Positions 26,699-43,287 of a stretch of 64,000 nt of DNA are shown piece after piece. The translations under genes and the position numbers were made by a program. The stretch comes from Oscillospiraceae bacterium (GTDB taxonomy: Bacteria > Bacillota > Clostridia > Oscillospirales > CAG-272): the NCBI GenBank assembly GCA_015065455.1, contig SVQI01000003.1:81463-145462 (forward strand). Direction: 5' to 3'. The notes under the pieces are model-generated. The model did not search any database, was not told the origin of the DNA, and saw only the letters and a program-made list of their open reading frames with translations. Each line of letters opens with the position of its first letter. Position 1 is the first letter of the stretch.

Positions 26699-26760
26699 AC
26701 CATGTAATATAATATAAACGATGTTCAAAACTACGGGTCGTCGTGTTGATTATAATACAT

Positions 26761-26930
26761 GATAGCCCTCCATCAGATACGCTGATGACAGTCCGACACT
26801 TATTGAGTGCCGGCCCAGCCCTACGCATTAAACCGCTTATATGCGAAAGACTTCGGCGAGTTCACCTTTCGGTACGTATAAACGGCAGCGGAGCCTGTAC
26901 ATACCTATTCTTTGAATTCGCACCTCTATC
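26761..26930 (-). ncRNA. Lysine riboswitch (L-box)
   Basis: Minus strand, about 170 bases. P1 is closed by GATAG (26926-26930) and CTATC (26761-26765). It carries the characteristic conserved core, including AGGTGCGAA at the 5' side, GAAAGGTGAACTCGCCGAAG in the middle and GGAGGGCTATC at the 3' side, with several hairpins between. Promoter directly in front and terminator then dapA behind. Lysine binding should favour the terminator. Recognition from memory of the family consensus; strong. Confidence 0.93.
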
Positions 26931-26938
26931 TAACATAT

Positions 26939-40894: not shown

Positions 40895-41293
40895 TTATGG
40901 ATTATATTTTAAGACTACGTCATAATCACTCATTTCTTCCGCTGTAAGTGTTATGATAACTTCATTATCTTTCCATGATACATCTTTTACATTACGTTCT
41001 GTTGTTTGTTTTCCGTCGTTTGCAATTCGTGTTTCTATTCTGTCAATTTTTTTACCTTTGCTGTTTTTTAGGGTCAGTTGAACGGTTGTAGAACCAAAAG
41101 GCCAGTCAGGATCTCCAATTTGTTCGAAAACAACAACGTAATGAGTATCAGGGTTTGTATATGTAGAAATTTCTTTTCGGTTAAAAACATCAAACGTCCC
41201 TCTTAAGCTTAATAAGAAAAACCCAAGCCATAAAAGGTATAGCGCAACTAAAGAAGCAATTATTATAGCTATTATTTTTATTGTCTTTTTCAT
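40895..41293 (-). CDS. Membrane-anchored small protein of unknown function
   Basis: 132 residues, not recognised. One N-terminal helix (about 6-28), then a beta-rich extracytoplasmic domain (HYVVVFEQIGDPDWPFG, TVQLTLKNSKGKK, VIITLTAEEMSDYDVVLKY). The ATG has AAAGGAT 12 bases upstream and the promoter is near consensus, so it is likely expressed. Monocistronic. Confidence 0.75.
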   Translation of the reverse strand: MKKTIKIIAIIIASLVALYLLWLGFFLLSLRGTFDVFNRKEISTYTNPDTHYVVVFEQIGDPDWPFGSTTVQLTLKNSKGKKIDRIETRIANDGKQTTERNVKDVSWKDNEVIITLTAEEMSDYDVVLKYNP

Positions 41294-41366: not shown

Positions 41367-41403
41367 GAAAAGAAAAATCCCACGCTTACCGCGCAGGATT
41401 TTT
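41367..41403 (-). terminator. Terminator downstream of the sigma-factor gene
   Basis: Minus strand AAAAATCC / GGATTTTT arms, continued by an inner CGC/GCG stem (about 13 pairs with two wobbles, loop GGTAA), tail CTTTTC. It closes a 3' region of about 170 bases below the sigma gene. Confidence 0.7.
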
Positions 41404-41540
41404 GTGACGTGTGTCCGATTTAGATGCGCACAGATTTTGCAGAGGGTAGACTAACCCCTTGGCGATGATGGGAGTTAAAAGGTTCCGCGTTCTACCGGAC
41501 TTTTAACACCATGCTTGCAAACGAGTCCTTTGTACATGGA
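41404..41540 (-). ncRNA. Candidate structured 3' RNA below the sigma-factor gene
   Basis: Between the sigma stop and its terminator three local hairpins follow one another on the minus strand: CCATG...CATGG enclosing CAAA/TTTG (41509-41539), GTTAAAAGTCC...GGA-CTTTTAAC (41474-41507), and GGGT...ACCC (41444-41457). No ORF longer than 20 codons is present. It could be a functional RNA, a structured 3' UTR or decayed coding sequence; no family recognised. Confidence 0.4.
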
Positions 41541-41544
41541 TATT

Positions 41545-43170
41545 TTAATTTTCTACGCTCATCCAACAGCCTTCTGCACCAATTCCGTCCTGGGGCGGTG
41601 TCAATACGCCTTTTTCAATGAGGCATTCAACAACTGCGTCAAGAATCGGCATACTCGCAAGATTATTCGCCAATCTCCATTCTCCAAGGAGATAATCAGG
41701 AACAGATTTCTTAATCAGCGTTGCAACTTTCTCAGCAACGATTTCCGCATCCGCATTAAAATGTCCGTTTTGCAAAGCGTTGCTTATATCAAAAAGTCTG
41801 TTTCTATCGGAAAGAGAGCTTACAAGAATCTTGGTGTAAAGCATATCTCCGTCACGGTACAAATAACCACACTCAATGGCTTTTGCTGCGTGCTCTTTTT
41901 CCGTTTCTGACAACGAGGTAATATTAAGGCCTTCAATCGCACGAAGTGCAAGTTGAATCTTAGGCTCTTTAGAAACGTTTAGACCGCAATTAAAGTGTTT
42001 CTTAATACGTGTGATATAGATATTATCAAGATGAACGTTAGAGAAGCCACACACATTTTGGGCATCAACACCATCCCATCCGCCACCGTAATACTTACCG
42101 TTGTCCACATATCCAAACACACTAAACGGACGATCCGTTTTTTCAACATCAGCAAAATGATTTTTCTCTAATGCACATTGAACGCAGTACGAAAAGGCAT
42201 CTGCAATATTGAATACCTGCTGCCAAAGGATAAGATTCATGTCAACTTTCTTGTTCAGATACGGGAAAGCAAGATATTCGGCTTTATGTTCCTCAATATA
42301 GTTTGATATGGTTTCGCAGATCTTTGGTAACTGCTCTGTATAAATTGCATTTGCTTTTTCGAATACATCCTTGTCAAGCAAAATGAAATTAAGCGCATAT
42401 TTGCCGTTATCCAAGCGGCGAAGAAAACCATACTTTCCGTTTTCACCTTTACGGAGGATTTCAAGTTCTTCTTCAACATATACGGTAGGAACATTTAGTT
42501 CCTCTGCGATTTCAGAAGCACTCATCGGTTTCTTGTGGCAAAGCCATACGATGTGATTTGAAAACATTCTCGTGCATACATTACGCGGATCTCCCCATGC
42601 AGGGCTGCCGGTTCCCCAAATCACGTAATCAATTTTATCAAGCGCCACGGGCTTATTATAAGTTTCTCCCATTTCTTCTACCTCGCTTTTGATCTTTTGT
42701 CTTGCCGAAAATAGTCTCTGACGAACAGCACCTTCACTTGTTCCTTGTGCATTAGCTATCTGAGCCGTGGAAAGACCGTCTATGTAGAACATAATCATTA
42801 CTTCTCGATATGCTTTTGTTAAGAAAGCCATTCTGCGATATACAGATCTTAAAAGCTCGGTCGTATCATCCGAATAGTCTTCTTCTGCAATTTGGAGCAA
42901 GATTTCTTCGGAATCACCCTCATATATAGTCTCTGTGCGCTTTCTGCGATTGTTTGAAAAGTCAGCATAGACGTTACGTGCAACTCTCCAAATAAATGGA
43001 TAAATACTTTCTATCTCTCCGTCACTATTTGCAGCTTTTACGAGAGCGTAAACAATATCTGAGCAAAGCTCCTCTGCTTCGTAGCTATCATTTGTTCTTG
43101 CATAACAAAAACCAAATAGCTTGTCAAGCAAGTCGTCATCAAAAAATTTCAGCAAGTCTCTTTTTTTCAT
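41545..43170 (-). CDS. ECF-like sigma-70 factor with large C-terminal extension
   Basis: 541 residues from the ATG at 43170 (GGAG 6 bases upstream; a GTG at 43203 lacks an SD). Residues about 12-75 form sigma region 2 (YPFIWRVARNVYADFSNNRR) and 115-160 region 4 (TKAYREVMIMFYIDGLSTAQIA and EGAVRQRLF). ECF factors end near 180, but here some 370 more residues follow, starting with a winged-helix-like segment (about 205-262, SASEIAEELNVPTVYVEEELEIL) and then a helical region with aromatic/Cys-rich parts. No anti-sigma gene is adjacent. The extension probably senses a signal in cis; target genes unknown. Confidence 0.82.
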   Translation of the reverse strand: MKKRDLLKFFDDDLLDKLFGFCYARTNDSYEAEELCSDIVYALVKAANSDGEIESIYPFIWRVARNVYADFSNNRRKRTETIYEGDSEEILLQIAEEDYSDDTTELLRSVYRRMAFLTKAYREVMIMFYIDGLSTAQIANAQGTSEGAVRQRLFSARQKIKSEVEEMGETYNKPVALDKIDYVIWGTGSPAWGDPRNVCTRMFSNHIVWLCHKKPMSASEIAEELNVPTVYVEEELEILRKGENGKYGFLRRLDNGKYALNFILLDKDVFEKANAIYTEQLPKICETISNYIEEHKAEYLAFPYLNKKVDMNLILWQQVFNIADAFSYCVQCALEKNHFADVEKTDRPFSVFGYVDNGKYYGGGWDGVDAQNVCGFSNVHLDNIYITRIKKHFNCGLNVSKEPKIQLALRAIEGLNITSLSETEKEHAAKAIECGYLYRDGDMLYTKILVSSLSDRNRLFDISNALQNGHFNADAEIVAEKVATLIKKSVPDYLLGEWRLANNLASMPILDAVVECLIEKGVLTPPQDGIGAEGCWMSVEN

Positions 43171-43287
43171 TTGTTTCTCCAAGCGATTGATCAATGCTTT
43201 CACTTATATAGTCCGCGCGTTTATAGAAATATTAGGTGGATTTTAGAATATTATATCATAAATTTTGAATTAGTCTCTGTGGTAGTA

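Follow-up and report, generated by a model that had tools for sequence, protein, structure and literature searches.

The gene on the minus strand at positions 41545–43170 of the window, i.e., the whole stretch of 64,000 nucleotides of Oscillospiraceae DNA analyzed here, encodes an ECF sigma factor with a long C-terminal extension, which we read, with a probability of roughly 0.55, as a self-contained one-component sensor–sigma switch with positive feedback. This reading is based on the architecture of the protein and its promoter, on the lack of further strong matches to that promoter, on purifying selection, and on the horizontal spread of the sigma factor as a single gene. According to the proposed mechanism, weak sigma-A transcription would provide a basal amount of the ECF sigma factor, and its 370-residue tail, consisting of an ArsR-like winged helix and a domain that is not recognized, would restrain or license the sigma factor upon a cytoplasmic signal. 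The active sigma factor would then transcribe its own gene from CCTAACA-N16-GACTATA, resulting in positive feedback, and a palindrome at the transcript start, acting as an operator for a dimeric winged helix or as a 5' hairpin, would set the gain. The coding sequence and its domains are as follows:

41545–43170, minus strand: coding sequence for the ECF sigma factor and its long C-terminal extension (541 aa in total, ATG at 43170)
42943–43131, minus strand: sigma70 region 2 (residues ~14–76 of 541; Pfam PF04542, PDB ECF matches)
42691–42849, minus strand: sigma70 region 4 (residues ~108–160 of 541; Pfam PF08281)
42385–42612, minus strand: predicted ArsR/SmtB-like winged helix, N-terminal in the extension (residues ~187–262; AlphaFold2 models, VIA-align Z-scores of 9–10 to CzrA/CadC/SmtB)
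41548–42384, minus strand: remainder of the extension (residues 263–541; AlphaFold2 model, pLDDT ~95)

The open reading frame is real and encodes a protein of 541 aa. A longer form of 552 aa could be read from a GTG at 43203, but this start is unlikely, since the extra part merely reads through the conserved 5' leader, the ATG at 43170 is preceded by a GGAG Shine-Dalgarno sequence (43177–43180), and this ATG is the sole possible start in many homologues. The first-pass annotation, made from the letters of the window, had proposed an ECF-like sigma factor without an adjoining anti-sigma gene, and both points hold. The sigma part comprises residues 1–171, in which Sigma70_r4_2 (1.5e-13) and Sigma70_r2 (1.1e-5) both score above the Pfam cut-offs; the sigma70-ECF profile TIGR02937 of NCBIfam also scores above its cut-off (1.8e-21), and the PDB fold matches include the ECF structures SigL, SigH, and SigW. 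The gene thus carries the sigma2 and sigma4 domains of ECF (group 4) sigma-70 factors (PF04542, PF08281, TIGR02937), along with a predicted ECF-type promoter of its own with an AAC-type −35 box and a 16–17-nt spacer. The neighboring gene at 40895–41293 encodes a 132-aa protein without a family, which does not recur next to other copies of the gene.

The extension is about twice as long as the sigma part (~370 versus ~171 aa), as had been noted. It was also described as a winged-helix-like segment after region 4 followed by a long stretch that was not recognized, and this description agrees with the searches: none of the families in Pfam, NCBIfam, PHROGs, or PADLOC accounts for the sequence beyond residue ~180, and HMM and structure searches of the extension returned no family, the ArsR-type winged helix being its sole recognizable part. 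The mean pLDDT of the AlphaFold2 models was 84.8 when the whole protein was modeled and 95.0 when the extension was modeled by itself. The modeled winged helix could be superimposed on CzrA with a Z-score of 10.1 and an RMSD of 3.0 Å for 84 residues. In the model of residues 263–541, helices are combined with a three-stranded sheet, a possible second winged helix, and a helical end. No fold match was found for these residues in match lists dominated by the winged helix, and a new fold is not claimed; Foldseek searches of the extension against the PDB and BFVD (viral models) gave nothing below an E-value of 0.04. A known enzyme or sensor was rejected, as PDB sequence profiles gave only weak winged-helix and unrelated matches, and so was an anti-phage defense gene, the PADLOC matches being weak HTH noise only.

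A folded, conserved domain following sigma4 and the lack of an adjacent anti-sigma gene are shared with ECF factors that have a regulatory C-terminal extension. The dN/dS value of the extension is ~0.05 (0.03–0.10), indicating strong purifying selection; values of 0.04–0.09 were obtained against copies at 78–92% identity, and in most pairs the constraint on the extension equals or exceeds that on the sigma part. The long and constrained extension is probably regulatory, in accordance with the built-in regulator first suggested. Given its fold, size, and constraint, and by analogy with ECF groups that are regulated by their C-terminal extensions (PMC8999054, PMC3426412), the tail would sense a ligand.

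Upstream of the coding sequence, three elements of the minus strand are relevant to the proposed feedback:

43207–43236, minus strand: predicted ECF-type promoter of the sigma gene (CCTAATA-N16-GACTATA; family consensus CCTAACA)
43181–43199, minus strand: palindromic leader AAGCATTGATCAATCGCTT, directly upstream of the Shine-Dalgarno GGAG (43177–43180), a putative operator or hairpin
43250–43277, minus strand: sigma-A-like promoter (−10 TATAAT), located farther upstream than the ECF promoter and retained in the closest copies, as read from their alignment

The conserved promoter of the copies is (A/G)CCTAACA-N16-GACTATA, and the −35 and −10 elements (TAACA-N16-GACTATA core) are spaced by 16 nt in 70 of the 72 copies where a promoter was found. 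The window copy has CCTAATA as its −35 element (43236–43230); 67 of 69 homologues have C instead of this T, which may weaken autoregulation of the window copy. The ECF promoter of the copies is followed by the leader GTGAAAGCATTGATCAATCGCTTGGAG, whose letters vary while the symmetry is retained (ATTGATCAAT, ATTCATGAAT, TGCTATAGCA, and GATCGATC). The longest palindrome in the leader has a mean length of 9.5 nt versus 4.9 nt in shuffles, and it is missing in some paralogues. This palindrome probably acts as a 5' hairpin or as an operator bound by the winged helix, and the sigma-A-like element is the probable basal promoter, judging from the aligned copies.

A close homologue is present in 9 of 59 related genomes, its own included (46–100% amino acid identity; 46–96% for the others). 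Genus mates G001–G004 gave sigma-part or distant matches only, three of those genomes being 70–84% complete. A scan of 84,980 species genomes yielded 80 loci, the majority of them in Oscillospiraceae and Lachnospiraceae that inhabit animal guts. The homologues are dispersed across gut Clostridia as single genes, and their DNA similarity extends from ~73 nt before the GTG through the stop codon and stops at both points. The neighborhood survey likewise revealed a lone gene with almost entirely different neighbors, which fall into 60 gene clusters among 65 upstream neighbors and 59 among 72 downstream neighbors, with no recurrent anti-sigma factor or partner beside the copies. Copies of other genera are 73–96% identical to the sigma gene, and the adjacent housekeeping protein TatD shares 43% (G006) and 53% (G017) identity with theirs. 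Since the sigma gene has a dS of only 0.48 to its copy in genus g32 (G035), i.e., lower than the TatD dS of 0.95 between two members of its own genus, the synonymous divergence indicates that the sigma gene has been transferred horizontally; TatD dS values against other genera are saturated.

The earlier suggestion of acquired DNA is thus supported by the patchy distribution and synonymous divergence, but not by base composition, which is nothing unusual, nor by the 3' RNA-like flank, which is separate. A phage origin was rejected, as no viral contig or phage matched, and so was a plasmid origin, as just one distant paralogue is located on a plasmid, a conjugative one in Ruminococcus albus. 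No terminal repeats or recombinase mobilizing the gene were recognized in end alignments of the copies. The copy of G006 (L034, G006:C36) has a mosaic appearance, with dS values to the window gene of 0.46 for the sigma part and 2.59 for the extension, which looks like domain-wise recombination between copies. In addition, 5'-truncated, partly duplicated, and nearly deleted copies were observed (L058, G025:C9; L083:6743–7876; L233), a sign of rapid turnover.

Downstream, a structured repeat of ~90–170 nt is found that also follows the stop codons of genes unrelated to this one and forms arrays resembling gene cassettes:

41370–41534, minus strand: RNA-like repeated element, starting a few nucleotides past the sigma stop codon and not part of the sigma gene
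Further copies of the repeat: L151:5369–5555; L191, L192, L193, L194, L195, L196, L197, L199, and L200

The RNA-like 3' region and the tRNA-Gln that had been pointed out as unusual flanks are real; however, the RNA-like segment is separate from the sigma gene, as it is missing from the other copies, which have ordinary terminators at that place. The element was found in 8 of 34 relatives, often in several copies 1–4 kb apart, each a few nucleotides after a stop codon. In G003, a member of the same genus, the corresponding locus (L151) has the same flanks (84% DNA identity for tatD and 81% for tRNA-Gln/ybaK-like) and lacks the sigma gene. The site is occupied by other minus-strand genes, including a DUF2310 gene, and here it is the stop codon of this gene that directly adjoins the RNA-like segment. 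The arrangement resembles an exchange of cassettes at a hotspot next to the tRNA. A classical integron attC is not supported, as the integrase IntI (TIGR02249) had no match over the curated cut-off in the 34 genomes; no clear attC boxes (RYYYAAC ... GTTRRRY) after the stop codon were visible by eye in the repeat. A known RNA was also rejected, with no match in Rfam, and RNAalifold gave weak covariation support for the element. Gut-1 RNAs (RF01706), mostly as opposed pairs, lie between cassette-like genes next to the repeat (L193:5150–7551 and L195:4829–5021), a placement that may help to put this RNA family, whose function is unknown, into context. Elsewhere in the window, a lysine riboswitch (RF00168) is located at 26755–26936 on the minus strand (E-value 1.6e-29).

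Many related genomes also contain distant paralogues, up to about a dozen each, of the same size and plan and with ~25–30% identity. Their layout is the same, and most have different −35 boxes (CAATGA, TAACCA, TTAACCG, CTATCC, and CCAACC) at almost the same position. Over all pairs, −35 similarity correlates with sigma4 identity (rho 0.66) more strongly than spacer (0.42) or upstream DNA similarity (0.33) does, and it correlates with the identity of the extension as well (0.63); self-recognition is not proved by this correlation, since −35 similarity tracks the extension as well. The paralogue signature ACTATANRNRTGAAAG occurs at 17 sites in 15 genomes. Family genes follow 13 of these sites and ordinary ECF genes two; of the last two sites, one precedes a lipoprotein gene (G021) and one is probably due to chance. 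The lipoprotein gene, preceded by the sibling-class promoter CCAACCTTTT...ACACTATA (L227, G021:C30:35901–35916), is a candidate non-self target of a paralogue, and this sibling class may therefore have a further target besides itself.

For the window sigma factor, no obvious target gene had been noticed. The promoter scans contradict this, in that the predicted target is the sigma gene itself, whose promoter is the sole good match in the genome. A genome-wide search for promoters, which had been recommended, did find a non-sigma-A motif near the gene and no other gene with a good match: the promoter occurs once, before the sigma gene, with no other site at one mismatch and 12 other sites at two mismatches versus 30 for the reversed control. 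In the nine genomes with the gene, at most one site per genome was found when one mismatch was allowed. The exact promoter was found at 20 sites, in 20 of the 295 family genomes. Orthologues follow 17 of these sites; of the other three, one precedes a distant paralogue, one a decayed copy, of which a remnant keeping only the first codons is left, and one is due to chance. Because 19 of the 20 exact sites precede family genes or a remnant, the predicted regulon of the window sigma factor seems to be its own gene, as far as exact-motif scans, which miss targets with a weaker −35 box or other spacing, can tell. Besides more sigma factor, the output may comprise a few weak targets missed by the scans or another activity of the tail, or there may be no further output.

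Such targets would be expected if the protein were an ordinary ECF regulator that combines autoregulation with a few host genes, served by weaker or differently spaced promoters that escape the exact-motif scan. Autoregulation along with other targets is the common pattern among ECF factors, and a sibling class has a candidate target, the lipoprotein gene at L227. Yet, the gene moves between genera without its neighbors, so that fixed host targets would be unlikely to travel along, and both the rarity of own-genome sites with up to two mismatches relative to the control and the 19 family-linked exact sites in 295 genomes speak against this explanation, which we consider possible but rather unlikely. 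A different explanation places the promoter under another host ECF factor, the protein itself not being an active sigma factor. Although two ordinary ECF genes do share the −10/leader signature with the family, the promoter has been retained in distant hosts that differ in their sigma sets, the −35 class tracks the gene's own sigma4, and sigma2 and sigma4 are intact and conserved, which makes this explanation very improbable.

The sigma gene may also be in part selfish. Taken to the full, it would be a selfish or toxin-like single-gene element that persists by transfer and self-expression, or sequesters RNA polymerase when triggered, and performs no service for the host. A single-gene unit with its own unique promoter, a patchy distribution, many insertion contexts, and truncated, frameshifted, or decayed copies (L058, L067, L078, L085, L095, and L233) are consistent with such an element; however, it has no recognizable recombinase, terminal repeats, or target-site signature and is absent from the viral and phage collections searched. 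Moreover, the strong purifying selection on the sensor-like tail, while by itself compatible with selfishness, suggests a selected function, and we regard a purely selfish element as improbable. The one-component switch can also be extended, tentatively and with less support than it has itself, to a large family of self-only sigma genes that are mobile and insulated from one another, each having its own specificity and a signal sensed by its tail, and spreading between bacterial genera as a single gene. In that reading, a self-only gene would work regardless of the host, since the specificity for its promoter travels with it.

The usual view of a sigma factor is that it regulates other genes, and a widespread family in which the best window-type promoter matches are all located before itself raises the question of what purpose a one-gene regulon serves. 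If the above reading is true, the paralogues, which number up to about a dozen per genome and differ in their −35 boxes, would amount to natural orthogonal positive-feedback switches with built-in sensors, which would be useful for the synthetic biology of gut Clostridia, and the family would exemplify a transcription factor that spreads as a single gene.

ECF factors with regulatory extensions are already known, and the extension matches none of the well-described groups that could be compared, a match that would have spoken against the first-pass interpretation. ECF41, ECF42, and ECF238 (SigJ, TPR-type, and CorE, respectively) combine sigma factor and regulatory C-terminal domain in one polypeptide without an anti-sigma factor (PMC8999054, PMC3426412), and the present protein shares this single-polypeptide plan. 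Its extension, however, is not of the SnoaL, TPR, or Cys-rich type; with 370 aa, it exceeds theirs in length, and its first domain is an ArsR-like winged helix. Indeed, the SnoaL domain of ECF41 and ECF56 was absent in Pfam and NCBIfam scans, the top folds being ArsR-type; no TPR match as in ECF42 was found in Pfam; and, in comparison to CorE-like ECF238, the linker has no CXC and the family-conserved columns contain no Cys. With regard to the fused anti-sigma factors of ECF48/52/53, Pfam gave no zinc-finger or anti-sigma family match, and the confident globular model of the extension argues against transmembrane helices such as theirs. ECF262, with the exemplar SFB89493.1 from R. albus, is listed in Table 2 of PMC8999054 with an extension and an unassigned mechanism; it is likewise a clostridial ECF factor without an anti-sigma factor. 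Plasmid pRUMAL02 of R. albus 7 encodes a 512-aa member of the present family, RUMAL_RS18960, and the family may be ECF262, as compared by the description in PMC8999054 only.

No description was found of the combination of a lone mobile gene, a self-only promoter, and paralogues with different −35 boxes. The likeness to the ArsR/SmtB metal sensors CzrA, CadC, and SmtB consists of the winged-helix fold (Z-score of about 10 over ~84 residues) and is limited to that one domain, with 13–16% identity. In engineered autogene circuits, T7 RNA polymerase drives its own gene, and the resemblance lies in a specificity factor that would transcribe its own gene; in contrast to these circuits, the present system is natural and sigma-based and has a putative sensor built in.
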